DNA of 46,160 nucleotides. It comes from a bacterium. GTDB lineage: Bacteria; Patescibacteriota; Minisyncoccia; Sungbacterales; GWA2-42-14. The position numbers and the translations under genes are program-made. The stretch spans positions 1-46,160 of the forward strand of contig JAUSFV010000042.1 in the NCBI GenBank assembly GCA_030649305.1, in the 5' to 3' direction. Each line of letters opens with the position of its first letter. Positions within the stretch are counted from its first letter, which is position 1. This document shows positions 6,118 to 46,160 of the stretch, in pieces. The notes beneath the pieces are model-generated. The model was not told the DNA's origin. It did no database searches and saw only the letters and a list, made by a program, of their open reading frames with translations.

Positions 6118-6951
6118 ATGGACCACATTGGAATCATTGGGCTTGGATTTTTAGGCGGAACGTTACGGCGGTATTTTGAAAAAAACCGCCGTCAATACCG
6201 CTTATTTTTTTACGACACCGGAAAACACATCGGGTCGCCCGAAGAGGTCAATAAAGCGGATATTATTTTTGTCTGCGTCAATACGCCTTATTCAAAAAAG
6301 GAGGGGAGTATGGATGCTTCATTCCTTGAGTCAGCATTGAAAAATATCAGGGGAAATAAGATTGTTGTTGTCCGGTCAACGGTACTACCCGGTACTATCG
6401 CGCGCCTGCAAAAACGATTCCCGCAATTAAAAATTTTGCTCAATCCGGAATTTCTGCGGGAAAAATATCCCGATGAAGATTTTGTGCGTCCTCCCATGCA
6501 AATTGTGGGCTACACCAAACAATCAAAGCCGTACGCAAAACAAATTTTATCACTTTTGCCGAAAGCTCCGCATATGGCGACCATGCCGGCGGAAACCGCG
6601 GAATTTATCAAATATTTTGTAAATAGTTTTCTTGCGATGAAGGTTACATTTGTAAACGCGTTTTGGGACGCATGCGGGAAAACAGGCGCGGATTACCGTA
6701 TTCTGCAAAACGCGGTCGCTTCGGAACCCCGTATCGGTCCCTCGCATTTGAATGTGTGGTACGAGGGGTTTCGCGGATATTCGGGCTCGTGTTTTCCTAA
6801 AGACACAAAATCGCTCATCGGATTTTTCCGCGCACGCGGTATTGACTATTCATTTCTTGCCGCGATGGATACGTATAACGACCGCCTGCTGAAAAAGCAG
6901 AAGATAAAAATAAATTTCGGCTACCCCCGCACAAAAAATTCTAAATCCTAA
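6118..6951 (+). CDS. UDP-glucose/GDP-mannose 6-dehydrogenase-like protein lacking the C-terminal domain
   Basis: Encodes 277 aa; full-length UDP-glucose dehydrogenases have about 390-450. The N-terminal NAD-binding domain shows GLGFLG (8-13), NTP (55-57) and RSTVLPGT (86-93). The central domain has NPEFLRE (109-115), the conserved K165 and N169 in EFIKYFVNS, and the catalytic cysteine C225 in GSCFPKD. The nucleotide-sugar-binding C-terminal domain is absent. The final residues (KNSKS) and the stop codon are encoded by the first units of the heptad repeat starting at 6937. The catalytic residues are intact, but activity without the third domain is uncertain; truncation by repeat invasion is a plausible explanation. 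Confidence 0.75.
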   Translation: MDHIGIIGLGFLGGTLRRYFEKNRRQYRLFFYDTGKHIGSPEEVNKADIIFVCVNTPYSKKEGSMDASFLESALKNIRGNKIVVVRSTVLPGTIARLQKRFPQLKILLNPEFLREKYPDEDFVRPPMQIVGYTKQSKPYAKQILSLLPKAPHMATMPAETAEFIKYFVNSFLAMKVTFVNAFWDACGKTGADYRILQNAVASEPRIGPSHLNVWYEGFRGYSGSCFPKDTKSLIGFFRARGIDYSFLAAMDTYNDRLLKKQKIKINFGYPRTKNSKS

Positions 6952-7037
6952 ACTCTAAATTCTAAACGACGTGTTTTGAATTTGATATTTCGAATTTTGA
7001 ATTTATTTAGAATTTAGGATTTAGAGTTTAGTATTTT
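6937..7037. repeat. Heptad-phased inverted repeat overlapping a gene end
   Basis: Left arm units TTCTAAA, TCCTAAA, CTCTAAA, TTCTAAA (from 6939) pair with a right arm near 7006-7033. A 25-nt alignment of the left arm with the reverse complement of the right arm has 21 matches. The left arm supplies the stop codon (6949-6951) of the dehydrogenase gene. Confidence 0.75.
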
Positions 7038-19064: not shown

Positions 19065-20088
19065 GAGTATAAAACAACGTATCAAATCGGTTAAAAATAC
19101 ACGCCAAATTACTAAGGCGATGGAGGCGGTGTCTGCCACAAAAATGCGGCGCTCCCAGCGTTTCGCTCTTGACGGACGGCCGTACGCGCTTGCCGCACTT
19201 GAAATGCTCGGGAACGTAACGCAGAGAACCGAATACCGGCCAAAACTTTTGGCGGAACGCGAAATAAAACGCGCCGTTTTGGTTGTGGTCACTTCGGACA
19301 AGGGGCTTGCTGGCGCATTCAATGCCTCCGTTTTGCGCAAAGCTGAAGCGTGGATTGCCGAACACGCGCAGCAATATCCCGTTGACCCCGTTAGAAGTTT
19401 AACAACGTCTATCCATGACAAAGAGCCAAAGGACGAAGTCGACTTACGTCTTTCTTCATCACTGAAAAAAGTATCTTCTTTAACTTCTAACGGGGTGGAT
19501 ATTATAACCGTCGGAAAAAAGGCGCGTGATTATTTTGGAAATCGAAAAGGAAATGTGATAAAAGAATTTTTGGGATTTGGCGATTACGCGGAGCCGAACG
19601 AAACAAAACCCCTCTCTGATTTTTTACTGAAAGGTTTTATCGCGCATCAATGGGATTTAGTTGAAATTATGTATACAAACTTTCGTACTACGCTAAAACA
19701 AGAAGTTGCTGAGGCGCGAATTTTCCCCGTGAATCTGGAAAAAATAAAACAAACGATTGAAAACATTATTCCCGAGCATGGTCGTTTCGCTAATACGGCT
19801 ACAAGCTACAAGCTACAAGCTACCAGCTACGAGTATAAACTGGAGCCGAGCGCGGAGGTCGTGTTGGACACCCTCATTCCGCACTTGATTGAAACGCAAA
19901 TTTTCCATATGATACTTGAGTCAAATGCCTCGGAGCATTCGGCCCGTATGGTCGCGATGAAGAATGCTTCGGAAAATGCGGGAGAAATTATCAGCGAACT
20001 GACGCTTGAATATAATAAATCAAGGCAAGCGGGAATTACCCGGGAGCTTACCGAAATTACGGCAGGAAAGGAAGCGCTGGAGGGATAA
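19051..20088 (+). CDS. atpG: F-type ATP synthase subunit gamma with two repeat-derived insertions
   Basis: Encodes 345 aa, against about 285-295 in the family. The N-terminal helix (SIKQRIKSVKNTRQITKAM, residues 5-23) and the C-terminal ARMVAMKNASENA and AGITRELTEI are clear gamma signatures. Two extra stretches explain the length. Residues 112-149 are encoded by a 110-nt palindromic element (19386-19495); deleting 38 codons gives YPVDIITVGKKARDYF, a normal gamma sequence. Residues 250-261 come from a CTACAAG heptad array. Gamma is the rotor shaft, and the insertions must lie in its surface domain for the enzyme to work (inference). A second copy of its 3' end follows. Confidence 0.93.
   Translation: MPSVKSIKQRIKSVKNTRQITKAMEAVSATKMRRSQRFALDGRPYALAALEMLGNVTQRTEYRPKLLAEREIKRAVLVVVTSDKGLAGAFNASVLRKAEAWIAEHAQQYPVDPVRSLTTSIHDKEPKDEVDLRLSSSLKKVSSLTSNGVDIITVGKKARDYFGNRKGNVIKEFLGFGDYAEPNETKPLSDFLLKGFIAHQWDLVEIMYTNFRTTLKQEVAEARIFPVNLEKIKQTIENIIPEHGRFANTATSYKLQATSYEYKLEPSAEVVLDTLIPHLIETQIFHMILESNASEHSARMVAMKNASENAGEIISELTLEYNKSRQAGITRELTEITAGKEALEG
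19386..19495 (+). mobile_element. 110-nt palindromic element, copy 1 (inside atpG)
   Basis: The ends CCCCGTTAGAAGTT (19386-19399) and AACTTCTAACGGGG (19482-19495) are perfect inverted repeats. The exact centre is AAGTCGACTT (19436-19445). The whole is an imperfect palindrome of 55+55 nt. It is homologous to 38804-38913: same length, same ends, and the shared GACTTACGTCTT at the same offset. It is read as PVRS...DLRLS...TSNG in the host gene. The interrupted gene carries GTTGA/GTGGA 114 nt apart. Confidence 0.85.
19799..19833 (+). repeat. CTACAAG heptad array in atpG
   Basis: Five consecutive 7-nt units: CTACAAG three times, then CTACCAG and CTACGAG. It is read as ATSYKLQATSYE. The same word is tandemly repeated in gltX at 29491. 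Confidence 0.9.
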
Positions 20089-20180: not shown

Positions 20181-22101
<1,921 letters not shown>

Positions 22102-24468: not shown

Positions 24469-24581
24469 ATTTCTAATTGACCTAATTTTTAATTGACCTA
24501 ATAAAATCCCAGTAGCCCAATCACTAAAATTGCGGTTTGGGATTTATTTAGAAATTAGAAATTATGAATTAGAAATTAGAA
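24469..24581. repeat. Heptad-phased inverted repeat, AATTAGA family (copy 1)
   Basis: The right arm has five units TTTAGAA, ATTAGAA, ATTATGA, ATTAGAA, ATTAGAA (24547-24581). The left arm contains TTCTAATTGACCTAAT. GGGATTT/AAATCCC flank the centre. It shares long words with 39276-39387 and ends 4 nt before the murD start codon. Confidence 0.8.
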
Positions 24582-24585
24582 AACT

Positions 24586-25956
24586 TTGTTTGATGAAAAA
24601 AATCTTGGAAAATGGAAACTTCAAAAAAATGCAAAACCCCTGAGGGTGCTGATAATGGGTTTGGGGTTACACGGCGGGGGAGCGGGGGCAGCCCGCTTTT
24701 TTGCAAAGCGGGGATGGCGCGTAACCGTAACCGACTTAAAATCCCGCCGGGAGCTTGCGCCATCGCTCAAAGAATTACGGGGGTTCTCTTCTATCCGCTA
24801 TGTTCTTGGCCAGCACCGGAAAAAGGATTTTCTCGGAACAGATCTGATTATTAAGGGGGCGGGGATTTCGTGGCAGCATCCGCTCTTGGCGCTTGCCCGT
24901 AAAAAAAATACTCCTGTTGAAAGCGACGTAGGAATTTTTTTTGAATTATGTTCTGCTCCCGTTATCGGTGTAACCGGCTCAAAAGGGAAATCAACCGTGG
25001 CAAGCCTCATCGCGTCATTGCTTCAGAAAAAATACCATCACGTATTTCTCGCGGGAAATATCAGAAAATCGGTATTTGATATCCTGCCGTATATTACGAA
25101 AAATTCGCTTGTTGTGCTTGAGTTGTCATCATGGCAGTTGGAAGATCTCGCGCGTCATAAAAAAAGTCCGCACGTCGCGGTGATTACTAACATCTTACGG
25201 GAACATCTGAATAAATATAAAAATTTTTCGGCATACGCCCGCGCGAAATCTCTCATTGTTCGCTTTCAGAAAAAGAACGATTATTTCGTTATACACAAAA
25301 ATGATGCGTTCATATACCGTATAGTAAAGAAAGCTGTCTCACGCGTCATTTTTTTTAAAAAGCCCCCCTTTCGTATTGCAAATTCCCGACTTCTCGGCGC
25401 ACATAATGAAGAAAATGCCGCAGCGGCTCTTGCGGTTGCAAAACTTTATCGTATTCCTCCCTCAAAACAGCGCGCCGCAATTCGTGAGTTCGGCGGTCTT
25501 GAAGGACGGCTTGAATTCATAGTAAAAAAACAAGGAGTGGAGTATTATAACGACACCACCGCGACCATGCCTGATGCCACAATCGTGGCTTTGCGTACGC
25601 TCAAGCTCCGCACCAAAGGCAGTATCGTTCTTATCGCGGGCGGTACTGATAAAAAACTTGATTTCAGAAAACTCGCAAAAGAAATTAAAAAAAACGTACG
25701 GGTAATTGTTTGGTTGCCGGGAAAAGCTACAGAAAAAATAAAATTCGAAATTCGAAATTCGAAATTCGAAAAACGAATAGGCCAATACAACGCGAAAAAT
25801 ATGCGGGAAGCGGTTACCAAGGCCTCAAAAGTTGCAGTGGCGGGGGATATTGTTTTACTTTCTCCCGGAGCTGCGAGCTTTGGGCTTTTCCAGAACGAAT
25901 TTGAGAGGGGAGAGGAGTTTGTGCGTTTCGTGCAAAAAATAAGAACACGCGAATAA
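24586..25956 (+). CDS. murD: UDP-N-acetylmuramoylalanine-D-glutamate ligase MurD
   Basis: Encodes 456 aa. The N-terminal Rossmann-like domain has VLIMGLGLHGGGAG (21-34). The Mur-ligase ATP site is GVTGSKGKST near 128-137, followed by ELSSWQL, the HNEENAAAA motif near 275 and the EGRLE and NDTTATMPDA motifs. MurD adds D-glutamate to UDP-MurNAc-L-Ala. The start is TTG at 24586: a stop lies at 24577-24579 and no ATG precedes the first beta strand. Residues 386-396 are encoded by an AAATTCG heptad array. It heads the murD-ftsW-murG row. Confidence 0.92.
   Translation: MFDEKNLGKWKLQKNAKPLRVLIMGLGLHGGGAGAARFFAKRGWRVTVTDLKSRRELAPSLKELRGFSSIRYVLGQHRKKDFLGTDLIIKGAGISWQHPLLALARKKNTPVESDVGIFFELCSAPVIGVTGSKGKSTVASLIASLLQKKYHHVFLAGNIRKSVFDILPYITKNSLVVLELSSWQLEDLARHKKSPHVAVITNILREHLNKYKNFSAYARAKSLIVRFQKKNDYFVIHKNDAFIYRIVKKAVSRVIFFKKPPFRIANSRLLGAHNEENAAAALAVAKLYRIPPSKQRAAIREFGGLEGRLEFIVKKQGVEYYNDTTATMPDATIVALRTLKLRTKGSIVLIAGGTDKKLDFRKLAKEIKKNVRVIVWLPGKATEKIKFEIRNSKFEKRIGQYNAKNMREAVTKASKVAVAGDIVLLSPGAASFGLFQNEFERGEEFVRFVQKIRTRE
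25741..25768 (+). repeat. AAATTCG heptad array in murD
   Basis: Four perfect tandem copies of AAATTCG, then AAAAACG. It is read as KFEIRNSKFE. The heptamer has no stop codon in any frame. Confidence 0.9.
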
Positions 25957-28443: not shown

Positions 28444-29895
28444 ATGGAAAAACCTGTTCGCGTCCGTATCGCGCCATCACCAACCGGCCCATTGCATATC
28501 GGTACCGCACGTACCGCGTTATTTAACTACTTGTTCGCCAAAAAATTTGGCGGGCATTTTATTTTGCGTATTGAGGATACCGACCTTGAGCGCTCCGATA
28601 AAAAATACGAAAAGGATATTTTTGATGGATTAGCGTGGCTCGGAATAGATGCGGATGAATCGCCGGAAAAAGGAGGGAAATACGGGCCGTACCGCCAAAG
28701 CGAACGTATCGGAACATATAAAAAATATTTGGGAAAATTGCTCGCGGACGGAGCCGCGTTTTATTGTCTTCATTCGGAACAAGAACTTTCAGCGGAAAAA
28801 GAAACACTCATGGCTGAGAAAAAACCGCTTGCGCATTGGTGTGAATTTCGTGACGTGCCGCTTGCCGACGCAGAAACAAAACTCGGGCAAAGTCATGTTA
28901 TCCGTTTCAAAACCCCGCACAATCAAAAAATAGTTTTCAAAGATATTATCCGCGGAGAACTTTCGTTTGATTCGGAACTTATCGGCGATTTTTCAATCGC
29001 AAAAGATATTGATGTACCGCTTTATAATTTTGCCGTTGTTATAGATGATGCTGAAATGAAAATTTCGCATGTTATCCGAGGGGAAGAGCACATTTCCAAT
29101 ACACCGAAACAGCTTCTATTGATGGTGGCGCTTGGGTTCGAAAAACCGGGATACGCGCATCTTCCGCTTATTTTGGGGACCGACCGTTCAAAACTTTCCA
29201 AGCGGCGCGGAGCGACATCCGTTATTGATTATAAAAACGAAGGATATCTTCCCGAGGCGCTCTTTAATTTTATGGCGCTCCTTGGATGGAATCCCGGCGA
29301 TGAGCGCGAAATTCTCTCAAAAGAAGAACTTAAAAATGAATTTTCGCTTGAAAAAATACAAAAATCCGGAGCGATATTTGATATAACAAAACTTGATTGG
29401 ATGAATGGAGAATACATACGCAAAAAATCTACCGAGGATTTAGTTGCGCTCTGCCTTCCTTATCTAGAAAAAATCATCGCGCCGGAACTTCTACACGCTA
29501 CAAGCTACAAGCTACAAACTATTATTGCATTGGAACAACCGCGTTTGAAGAAACTGTCTGAAATAGGGGAGCGGGTAGAGTATTTTTTCAAACAACCGGA
29601 ATATGACAAAGAATTATTGCGATGGAAAAAAATGTCCGACACGGATATCTCGGCTTCGTTAGAAAAATCGGAAAAAATAATTACACAATTTAAATCAACA
29701 ATCACCAAGACAGAAATTGAAAAAGAATTTTTAAAAGAAATAGGGGATGGGGACAAAGGAATAATTCTCTGGCCGCTTCGGGTGGCTTTAACCGGCAAAA
29801 AGGCATCACCCAGCCCCTTTGAAATTCTTGAAATCATGGAGCGCGATGTAGCGCTTGAACGGATTGCAATCGCGAAAAAAAAGATTGTTGCTTAA
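28444..29895 (+). CDS. gltX: Glutamyl-tRNA synthetase
   Basis: Encodes 483 aa, normal for bacterial GluRS. The class I HIGH motif is PSPTGPLHIGTART (11-24), and the KMSKS loop is DRSKLSKRRGATS near 241-253. Catalytic residues around RIEDTDLERS are intact. It charges tRNA-Glu, and possibly tRNA-Gln where an amidotransferase is used. The ATG at 28444 was preferred over an upstream TTG overlapping murG. Residues 350-359 (LHATSYKLQT) come from a CTACAAG heptad array in the linker before the anticodon-binding domain. Confidence 0.95.
   Translation: MEKPVRVRIAPSPTGPLHIGTARTALFNYLFAKKFGGHFILRIEDTDLERSDKKYEKDIFDGLAWLGIDADESPEKGGKYGPYRQSERIGTYKKYLGKLLADGAAFYCLHSEQELSAEKETLMAEKKPLAHWCEFRDVPLADAETKLGQSHVIRFKTPHNQKIVFKDIIRGELSFDSELIGDFSIAKDIDVPLYNFAVVIDDAEMKISHVIRGEEHISNTPKQLLLMVALGFEKPGYAHLPLILGTDRSKLSKRRGATSVIDYKNEGYLPEALFNFMALLGWNPGDEREILSKEELKNEFSLEKIQKSGAIFDITKLDWMNGEYIRKKSTEDLVALCLPYLEKIIAPELLHATSYKLQTIIALEQPRLKKLSEIGERVEYFFKQPEYDKELLRWKKMSDTDISASLEKSEKIITQFKSTITKTEIEKEFLKEIGDGDKGIILWPLRVALTGKKASPSPFEILEIMERDVALERIAIAKKKIVA
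29491..29518 (+). repeat. CTACAAG heptad array in gltX
   Basis: Four 7-nt units: CTACACG, CTACAAG twice, CTACAAA. Same word as the atpG array at 19799, giving the shared peptide ATSYKLQ. Confidence 0.9.
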
Positions 29896-39275: not shown

Positions 39276-39387
39276 AAATTTCTAATGACAAATTGACCTA
39301 ATTTCTAATCAAACCCCAATGCCTAACTGAAAAATTGTGAATTGGGATTTTATTAGGTTAATGAGAAATTAGAAATTAGAAATTTTT
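39276..39387. repeat. Heptad-phased inverted repeat, AATTAGA family (copy 2)
   Basis: The left arm contains AATTTCTAATGACAAATTG and TGACCTAATTTCTAAT. The right arm has GGGATTTTATTAGG and AGAAATTAGAAATTAGAAA. It shares these words with 24469-24581 and, like it, ends directly before a gene without an ATG start. Confidence 0.8.
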
Positions 39388-43842: not shown

Positions 43843-43876
43843 AACATTCTAACATTCTGCAGAATGTTAGAATGTT
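43843..43876. repeat. Perfect 34-nt palindrome between def and fmt
   Basis: Half-site AACATTCTAACATTCTG (43843-43859), itself two near-identical units of the word AACATTCT, followed by its exact complement. An ATG of the fmt frame (43872) lies inside it. Confidence 0.9.
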
Positions 43877-43883
43877 AAAACTA

Positions 43884-44939
43884 ATGACCACCTCCCCACT
43901 TCTCACATCTCACATCTCATCTCTCATATTTTGGGGAACATCCGAATTTGCCATACCCCCGCTTGAGGCCCTCTTGAACGAGGGTTATTCAATCGTAGTG
44001 GTTGTTACAACGCCCGATAAGCCCGCCGGACGAAAACAGCTCCTCACTCCCCCGCCGGTAAAATCATGGCTCACAAAACACGGAACATGGAATACAAAAA
44101 TAAAGATTCTTCAACCTGAAAAATTATCGGACGAAAATCTTAAATCTGAAATCTTAAATCTTAAATCAGATATCTTTGTGGTTGCTTCCTACGGCAAGAT
44201 AATTCCTGCCGACATCTTGGCACTCCCGAAATACGGCGCCCTCAACATCCACCCGTCACTCCTCCCCCGCTGGAGAGGCCCCTCACCCATTCAATACACG
44301 ATTTTAAACGGCGATACGGAAACGGGGGTTACCATTATAAAAATGGATGAAAAAATGGACCATGGACCAATTGTGGCAAACTCTAAACCCCAAACTCTAA
44401 ACTCTAAAACTACCTATCCCGAATTACATGATGCGCTTGCGAAGACGGGTGCGGAATTATTGATAGAAACATTGTCGAAGTGGATTGCGGGGGAGATTAA
44501 GCCGATACCGCAGGATGAATCAAAAGCAACCTACTCAAAAATGCTAAGAAAAGAAGACGGCCATATTGATTGGTCGCGTCCGGCGGAAGAGATTGAACGC
44601 ATGGTGCGCGCTTTCAACCCGTGGCCGGGGGCGTATGCGTTTTGGCTAAAACAATTCGCTTGGAGCGAATTGTTCGCCCGACCAGATTTGCTGGGCAAAT
44701 CTGGTTTAGGGCTAAAAAATGGCACGAAACTCAAAATTAACATTCTGAAAGCGGATGTGGTTACGTGCGCCGATTCCGCATCATTCGGCACCGTGCTCCC
44801 GAGCGAAAATGGCTTCATGATACAAACTCGCACAGAATGCCTTGCAATACACGAATTACAGCTTGAGGGCAAAAAATCAACGGACGCGAAGTCGTTCCTA
44901 AACGGATATCCCGAATTCTCAAAAGCGCTTCTTCTTTAA
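43884..44939 (+). CDS. fmt: Methionyl-tRNA formyltransferase with several repeat-derived segments
   Basis: Encodes 351 aa, against about 310-320. Fmt motifs: FWGTSEFAIPPLEAL (near 17-31), TTPDKPAGR, NIHPSLLPRWRGPSPIQ with the catalytic Asn/His, and NPWPGAYAFW at the C-terminal domain. It formylates initiator Met-tRNA. Four stretches are repeat-derived: the N-terminal strand (43898 array), residues 85-96 (44136), residues 166-175 (44379), and a 66-nt double hairpin (44644-44717) whose removal gives FWLKNGTKLKI. The start at 43884 is uncertain; an ATG at 43872 lies in a palindrome. Confidence 0.94.
   Translation: MTTSPLLTSHISSLIFWGTSEFAIPPLEALLNEGYSIVVVVTTPDKPAGRKQLLTPPPVKSWLTKHGTWNTKIKILQPEKLSDENLKSEILNLKSDIFVVASYGKIIPADILALPKYGALNIHPSLLPRWRGPSPIQYTILNGDTETGVTIIKMDEKMDHGPIVANSKPQTLNSKTTYPELHDALAKTGAELLIETLSKWIAGEIKPIPQDESKATYSKMLRKEDGHIDWSRPAEEIERMVRAFNPWPGAYAFWLKQFAWSELFARPDLLGKSGLGLKNGTKLKINILKADVVTCADSASFGTVLPSENGFMIQTRTECLAIHELQLEGKKSTDAKSFLNGYPEFSKALLL
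43898..43925 (+). repeat. Heptad array in the fmt N-terminus
   Basis: Units ACTTCTC, ACATCTC, ACATCTC, ATCTCTC. They encode LLTSHISSL, just before the first beta strand of the enzyme. Confidence 0.8.
44136..44170 (+). repeat. AATCTTA heptad array in fmt
   Basis: Units AATCTTA, AATCTGA, AATCTTA, AATCTTA, AATCAGA. The perfect repeat would place TAA at 44148-44150 and 44169-44171; the actual codons are GAA and GAT. Confidence 0.85.
44379..44406 (+). repeat. AACTCTA heptad array in fmt
   Basis: Units AACTCTA, AACCCCA, AACTCTA, AACTCTA. The perfect repeat would give TAA at 44391-44393; the second unit changes it to CAA. Confidence 0.85.
44644..44717 (+). mobile_element. 66-nt double-hairpin insertion in fmt with 8-nt direct repeats
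   Basis: GGCTAAAA occurs at 44644-44651 and 44710-44717, 66 nt apart. Between them are two perfect 11-bp hairpins with TGG loops: 44650-44674 (AATTCGCT/AGCGAATT core) and 44681-44705 (CCAGATTTGC/GCAAATCTGG core). Exact removal of 66 nt restores a normal Fmt reading. Confidence 0.85.
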
Positions 44940-45789: not shown

Positions 45790-46160
45790 TTAGTTGCCCG
45801 ATCTCTCCCATTGTAGCATTTTTCGCCCTAGTTTGTAACGGGTTTCGCGATTCCAATCCCGAAGCCGGAACAGCTCGCCCCGCGATATATCCTGTGCGGT
45901 TGCGGGCAAGTCCTCACCCCGAAACAGCCCCTCCGCGATTTCAAGATATCGCGCGTGCGCCCTGTCATTTAAATCGCGGAATAATTCCCGCGGGGGCTTT
46001 GTAGCGTCAGCCGAGATTACCGCAAGAATTTTTCCCGCGTCCACCTTCTCTTCCGCGTAGTGAATTGTCGCCCCGATTCGTGAATGGTCACCACGCAACA
46101 CGGCAAACTGATTTGCAATGGCCCCCCGATAATGCGGTGCAAAACCCATGTGCAGATTTA
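45790..46160 (-). CDS. Formyltransferase-domain protein (5' partial)
   Basis: The window holds 123 codons up to the stop at 45790; the gene continues past 46160 (the reading NLHMGFAPHYRG has no start yet). The formyltransferase-fold motif LHxxxxPxYRG, then NQFAVLRGD and GATIHYAEEKVDAGKIL, match the Fmt/ArnA-N/GART-like family. It lacks the C-terminal domain of true Fmt. It may formylate a sugar-nucleotide amine or act as another folate-dependent transferase. A second formyltransferase-type gene 1 kb from fmt. Confidence 0.75.
   Translation of the reverse strand, partial: NLHMGFAPHYRGAIANQFAVLRGDHSRIGATIHYAEEKVDAGKILAVISADATKPPRELFRDLNDRAHARYLEIAEGLFRGEDLPATAQDISRGELFRLRDWNRETRYKLGRKMLQWERSGN

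Follow-up and report, generated by a model that had tools for sequence, protein, structure and literature searches.

Heptad arrays in fmt and other genes of a Parcubacteria-type genome occupy recurrent protein sites and are filtered by the reading frame

The window (i.e. the entire stretch of 46,160 nt that was analysed) is the whole of contig 25 of a genome assembly of 1.02 Mb in 54 contigs. The source genome is incomplete and fragmented, and tandem repeats are prone to misassembly. In a comparison of Fmt proteins, the closest named relative was from Candidatus Sungbacteria, indicating a Parcubacteria-type genome. The gene fmt and the heptad arrays that it carries are as follows.

43872..44939, plus strand: fmt (methionyl-tRNA formyltransferase), host of three heptad arrays; Pfam PF00551 (Formyl_trans_N, E 2.9e-39) and PF02911 (Formyl_trans_C, E 2.3e-24)
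43897..43927, plus strand: array of CACATCT at the 5' end of the fmt ORF, with a stop-free coding strand (periodicity scan)
44135..44167, plus strand: array 1, unit AAATCTT, 4.7 copies, one substitution (TAA to GAA at 44148); TRF 92% matches, lag-7 score 20
44148..44150, plus strand: GAA codon that an unbroken AATCTTA array would turn into TAA (sequence and fmt frame)
44378..44408, plus strand: array 2, unit AAACTCT, 4.4 copies, two substitutions (TRF); a site at which Fmt of other Parcubacteria repeatedly carries arrays
44391..44393, plus strand: CAA codon that an unbroken array would turn into TAA (sequence and fmt frame)

Codon starts of fmt include 44136, 44148, 44169, 44379 and 44391. Array 1 is read as AAT CTT AAA TCT GAA ATC TTA AAT CTT AAA TCA GAT and encodes ENLKSEILNLKS, and array 2 is read as AAC TCT AAA CCC CAA ACT CTA AAC TCT AAA. 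An earlier sequence-only reading had proposed that these arrays escape stop codons by alteration of exactly the unit that would terminate translation. Its frame arithmetic was correct, with GAA at 44148 and CAA at 44391 in place of the expected TAA. The codon at 44169, also cited as an altered unit, lies past the periodic part of array 1 as delimited by TRF and represents the array edge. In array 2 the stop word is indeed altered, but the unit concerned (i.e. AACCCCA) carries two changes where one was needed.

The best solved relatives of the fmt product were the Fmt structures 4iqf, 3tqq and 1fmt. In an AlphaFold2 model of Fmt (10-sequence alignment, mean pLDDT 77), array 1 is predicted as helix 79-88; array 2 would span the end of a strand together with the loop that comes after it. 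A structure-relative alignment to 4iqf placed 0 and 1 extra residue, respectively, in arrays 1 and 2, indicating that existing sequence had been replaced. The proposal that arrays invade coding DNA and are then filtered by selection was upheld for the filtering of in-gene arrays against in-frame stops, and its term 'invade' calls for caution, as both fmt arrays replace a segment of conserved length. A second formyltransferase-like fragment (PF00551) is present on the minus strand at 45790-46158 and is truncated by the contig end.

Further arrays of the window lie in other genes, at gene ends and in spacers.

6936..6966, plus strand: array of AAATTCT over the 3' end of the gene at 6118-6951, whose stop codon comes from the array (periodicity scan)
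7005..7031, plus strand: array of ATTTAGA in a spacer, stop-bearing (TRF, periodicity scan)
19798..19830, plus strand: array of GCTACAA in an ATP synthase subunit gene (PF00231; periodicity scan, Pfam)
22026..22059, plus strand: array of ATTTAAG at the 3' end of the gene at 20631-22031, whose stop codon comes from the array (TRF, gene calls)
22080..22100, plus strand: array of TAAATCA in a spacer, stop-bearing (periodicity scan)
24548..24582, plus strand: array of TTAGAAA in a spacer, with stops on both strands (periodicity scan)
25741..25771, plus strand: perfect array of AAATTCG, stop-free on both strands, in a MurD-like Mur ligase gene (periodicity scan, gene annotation)
29491..29521, plus strand: array of CTACAAG in its stop-free orientation, in a glutamyl-tRNA synthetase-type gene (periodicity scan, gene annotation)
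39360..39384, plus strand: array of AATTAGA in a spacer, with stops on both strands (periodicity scan)

As the sequence-only reading had stated, stop-bearing arrays outside fmt in the window were found at gene ends or in spacers (i.e. those starting at 6936, 7005, 22026, 22080, 24548 and 39360). Host genes included fmt, synthetases of the GltX and IleS types, an ATP synthase subunit, a MurD-like ligase, a UvrC-type gene and alanine racemase, and also a glycosyltransferase and a type IV leader peptidase. This range of hosts does not match the location of phase-variable contingency repeats, which lie in surface or envelope genes where on/off switching is useful.

Arrays and stops were surveyed in 547 kb, or ~53% of this one genome, and in the orthologues of six genes. 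Genes of this genome were called with a simple scorer; the relatives numbered 25-33 per gene, from mostly draft and metagenomic assemblies. In the first 292 kb, 54 period-7 arrays were detected as compared to none in third-order shuffles, and all other periods below 14 gave 0-8 arrays each. The period-7 signal is beyond chance in this genome, and chance or composition was ruled out as the source of the arrays by the shuffles and the remaining periods. Array density was 0.066 per kb in genes and 0.268 per kb in spacers. Although the first eight contig stretches had been picked because their contigs hold AAATCTTAAATCTT, the gene/spacer ratio of 0.23 was unchanged in stretches picked without regard to repeats. 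In related genomes the density ranged from none up to 0.4 per kb. Density was also very patchy among contigs of the present genome (stretches L039-L078), with nine arrays in 20 kb of contig 3 and none in several 20-kb stretches; this patchiness could reflect chromosome position or a mixed origin of the contigs.

An account by chance or codon usage would hold that segments rich in K, N and I mimic a 7-bp periodicity in an A-rich genome and that stop avoidance is the ordinary property of an open frame. K, N, S, L and Q are frequent in the array peptides, and open frames lack stops by definition, both as this account expects. It is nevertheless highly improbable, since no other period behaves in this manner in the same genes, spacer arrays are as periodic as in-gene arrays and the shuffles yielded none.

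The effect of the reading frame was assessed by setting every array against perfect repetition of its own consensus unit. For in-gene arrays of this genome, would-be stops in the coding frame were intact in 0 and altered in 9 cases, whereas in the two remaining frames these words were intact in 21 and altered in 3. Spacer arrays retained 185 would-be stop words and had altered 35 (35/220). In the relatives' orthologues of the six genes, the intact and altered counts were 0 and 16 for the coding frame and 35 and 2 for the other frames. Pooling gave 0/25 as compared to 56/5 (P = 5e-17), a value that overstates the effect because the counts include related sequences, and so are not counts of independent events, and because an open frame cannot show a stop. 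The informative part of this comparison is the retention of stop words in the other two frames. The earlier prediction that substitutions concentrate at would-be stops did not find support in that form: it is partly circular, as an open frame must lack stops, and altered words occur in spacers too. Subject to this circularity, the filter step was shown, and no coding-frame stop was left by any in-gene array examined.

Altered stop words contribute less to this filter than the choice of unit and strand, which is the main filter. The coding strand of the consensus was stop-free in 25/33 in-gene arrays, an altered word being needed in the other eight. Units with stops on both strands made up 8/33 arrays in genes as compared to 26/35 in spacers (P = 8e-5), and in relatives, units with stops on one strand were found 35 times in the stop-free orientation and 4 times in the opposite one. 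AAATTAG, which has stops on both strands, was found 10 times and never in genes; eight of 10 AAGCTAC arrays were in genes. A whole-genome pattern search recovered 13 CTACAAG arrays, and in 11 cases the coding strand of an open frame 170-746 codons long reads CTACAAG. Nine of 11 arrays straddling a gene end did so at the 3' end.

A null model was calibrated on spacer arrays, in which arrays form uniformly and are removed only by stop codons. This model predicted 37.5 in-gene arrays (26-50), with 33 observed, and 18.1 stop-bearing in-gene arrays from pre-varied arrays alone (11.6-25.3), with 8 observed. As the observed number is below that predicted, pre-varied arrays suffice and repair mutations after landing need not be invoked. 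Arrays were also considered as breakers of essential genes; this was rejected, as three of five inspected orthologues with inner stops were array-free and the stops of the other two were not traced to an array.

The positions of arrays within proteins were compared among relatives. Around a dozen other Parcubacteria have arrays at the Fmt loop of array 2, built from other units (e.g. TTCAAAA, AAATTAC, GAAATCC, AATTTCC and CTTACAA), whereas in the non-Patescibacteria examined this loop has 22-23 residues without periodicity and no arrays. At the aligned AtpG site of the GCTACAA array, relatives carry arrays of AAATTCA, AAACTAC and ACCTACA. Recurrent sites were observed at AtpG residues 250-260, at GltX 354-368 and 422-431, at seven sites of IleS and at three sites of Alr. 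Over the six genes there were 183 co-located pairs (i.e. from different genomes, with different units, within 6 residues), as compared to expectations of 15 under uniform placement and 39 (maximum 64) when placement was limited to the 30% of positions that vary most. These data show that in-gene arrays occupy recurrent, sequence-variable protein sites with units that differ among species; the excess co-location may reflect a finer tolerance (i.e. of surface loops) than the coarse variability class captures. Recurrence of one unit at different sites of one gene was set aside as a weak, non-significant trend, unit sharing being 5/48 within the same gene of one genome versus 8/191 at the same site in different genomes (P = 0.14).

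Length differences between array-bearing and array-free orthologues fell into two groups, one near 0 and one at +7 to +10 aa, with a median of +2 aa, and these two groups rule out insertion as a general rule. Two same-genus species differ in length by 3 bp at Fmt 77-86, where one of them has a 30-bp array. In a further comparison within this genus, a clean 30-bp array insertion at Alr 340 in one species is absent from another, and 30 is not a multiple of 7. Arrays in genes were thus shown either to replace ~10 residues with little change in length or to add 7-10 residues. It is possible that the array-free orthologues of the same length once held arrays that have since decayed.

Different units at one site would also arise if the arrays were ancient at each site and their units were homogenised lineage by lineage through concerted evolution. 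Sites, lengths and register are alike across families, as this explanation predicts, and the AtpG arrays of two same-genus species (L205 and L207) were 97% identical as compared to 86% in their flanks, suggesting persistence rather than turnover. Most orthologues, however, are array-free at each site, Fmt outside Patescibacteria has an equal loop length without periodicity, and array presence differs between same-genus species at Fmt 77-86 and Alr 340, making concerted evolution improbable.

Array length peaked at 31-33 bp, both here and in relatives and irrespective of location in genes or spacers. Arrays of 30-34 bp accounted for 30/68 in this genome and 54/116 in relatives; hardly any exceeded 36 bp and only 3/184 reached 38 bp. 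Among 92 arrays there were 36 distinct units (classes AAATCTT, AAGCTAC, AAATTAG, AAATCAT and others), with 237 coincident pairs as compared to 18 when letters were permuted. Exact words of 32, 30 and 54 bp, irregular units included, each occur at a pair of places with unrelated flanks (identity 0.21-0.42); two such pairs are within long open frames. Identical irregular tracts at unrelated places indicate that tracts have been copied and were not only born in place. The genome contains many further dispersed repeats of 25-60 bp, many of them palindromic, so copying may be general and not specific to heptads. The 54-bp word, at L362 and L373, consists of heptads and a GC-rich near-palindrome around a CTACAAG array and lies in two unrelated open frames.

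Ordinary polymerase slippage offers an alternative history, in which each array grew in situ in 7-bp steps from chance microhomology of 3-4 bp at a distance of 7 bp and selection kept the frame. Heptameric simple sequence repeats are over-represented in many bacteria, and slippage over the polymerase footprint has been suggested as the cause (Mrazek et al. 2007, as summarised in PMC4692102 and PMC4679880), and the fractional copy of 3-4 bp is the expected trace of a microhomology seed. As the sole origin of the arrays slippage is unlikely, being at odds with the exact irregular tracts common to unrelated sites, the recurrence of units across the genome, the clean Alr insertion, the replacement without length change in Fmt of conserved length and the scarcity of arrays above 36 bp.

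From these comparisons we infer that tracts are written by the copying of existing arrays into new sites. The preferred reading, to which we give a probability of about two in three, is that a genome-wide process would write heptad tracts of ~31 bp in this way and that in-gene copies are filtered against stops. Slippage by 7 bp would be the most likely original source of the periodicity, after which existing arrays would be copied as short tracts into new sites throughout the genome. Short-patch double illegitimate recombination replaces local sequence with little change in length. Short single strands annealing through microhomology would act by such a route; template switching at replication forks would fit equally. 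Microhomology annealing is consistent with the replacement cases because local sequence can be replaced with little length change. Most in-gene copies would be lost through creation of a stop, a frame shift or a hit at a constrained site, and the fmt arrays may be survivors that carry, by chance, a variant unit where the in-frame stop would fall. In Acinetobacter baylyi, short DNA segments are known to undergo double illegitimate recombination (Hulter and Wackernagel 2008, as cited in PMC4437187). The likeness is that a short foreign or ectopic segment can enter the genome without homology, and for Parcubacteria this is a candidate mechanism only. Exact tracts of 30-54 bp at unrelated sites and equal-length replacement were both observed, but in separate cases and not in one datable event.

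A wider claim can be put forward tentatively, at somewhat short of even odds and from sequence comparison: that Parcubacteria possess an active, undescribed process that copies heptad tracts of ~30 bp and overwrites or adds segments of essential proteins at recurrent sites, such that pieces of ten residues would repeatedly be replaced in one step with reading frames acting as the filter. If true, block replacement of ~10 residues by repeat-derived peptides would be part of protein evolution in a bacterial group that is very large and uncultured, and would affect enzymes normally thought to evolve residue by residue. The recurring sites would mark where essential enzymes can accept arbitrary sequence, and the strength of the reading-frame filter could be gauged from the ratio of in-gene to spacer arrays. 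The seven-base preference of bacterial repeats would become directly testable through the characteristic tract length and the copied tracts.

Published work already covers the excess of heptamers, the idea of polymerase slippage and the way in which stop-bearing orientations are kept out of genes. Known bacterial heptameric repeats include the short tandemly repeated repetitive sequences of cyanobacteria and the GGGAATC repeats of Xanthomonas and Nostoc (PMC4692102). Such repeats share with the present arrays a unit of exactly 7, a low number of copies, units that vary about a word specific to the genome, abundance in spacers, under-representation in genes and the lack of an agreed function. 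The arrays described here differ in their A-rich words, which vary between sister species, in a sharp length near 31 bp, in the many arrays within essential genes at recurrent protein sites and in replacement without length change, features not described in the heptameric-repeat literature found. Stop codons have been named as a main control on the distribution of TAACTGA repeats in Beggiatoaceae, Cyanobacteria and Bacteroidetes (PMC4679880). Those repeats are likewise dispersed heptamers, with the stop-bearing orientation outside frames or overlapping gene ends and the other orientation within frames, but they have one fixed word, lie mostly just upstream of start codons and occur in genes mostly at protein ends. 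In contrast, the present arrays have many words, lie inside conserved enzymes and have the stop word altered only in the coding frame; the TAACTGA unit is absent from the array unit classes of this genome. Borg tandem repeats are also A-rich and fast-changing, occur in genes and spacers and lack stop codons when in genes, but their in-gene units are always divisible by three (PMC9879509), whereas here the unit is 7 in genes and spacers and cycles through three frames every 21 bases. Overwriting of recurrent sites with a characteristic tract length appears to be new: recurrent-site replacement, the 31-bp length and copied tracts were not found in the literature on Parcubacteria, Patescibacteria and the Candidate Phyla Radiation, in which subscription journals were thinly covered.

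Rickettsia palindromic elements lie in-frame in genes (Ogata et al. 2002 and Claverie and Ogata 2003, as described in PMC3733652) and resemble the heptad arrays as small dispersed repeats in frame at tolerant sites of housekeeping genes. The Rickettsia elements are palindromic and the heptad arrays tandem, although separate palindromic inserts are also present here, one of them in fmt. This insert (44646-44718) adds ~20 residues in frame and consists of two perfect 11-bp hairpins, AACAATTCGCT/AGCGAATTGTT and ACCAGATTTGC/GCAAATCTGGT. It was found in none of the aligned relatives, and DNA resembling it is present at two places on contig 31. Short GC-rich palindrome-like inserts were observed within or beside the heptad array at the Fmt loop of array 2 in three lineages (L012, L018/L186 and L027/L102). 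Between the peptide deformylase gene and fmt lies a perfect 34-bp palindrome (43843-43876; AACATTCTAACATTCTGCAGAATGTTAGAATGTT), which recurs at several further places in the genome (stretches L040, L049, L061 and L078).
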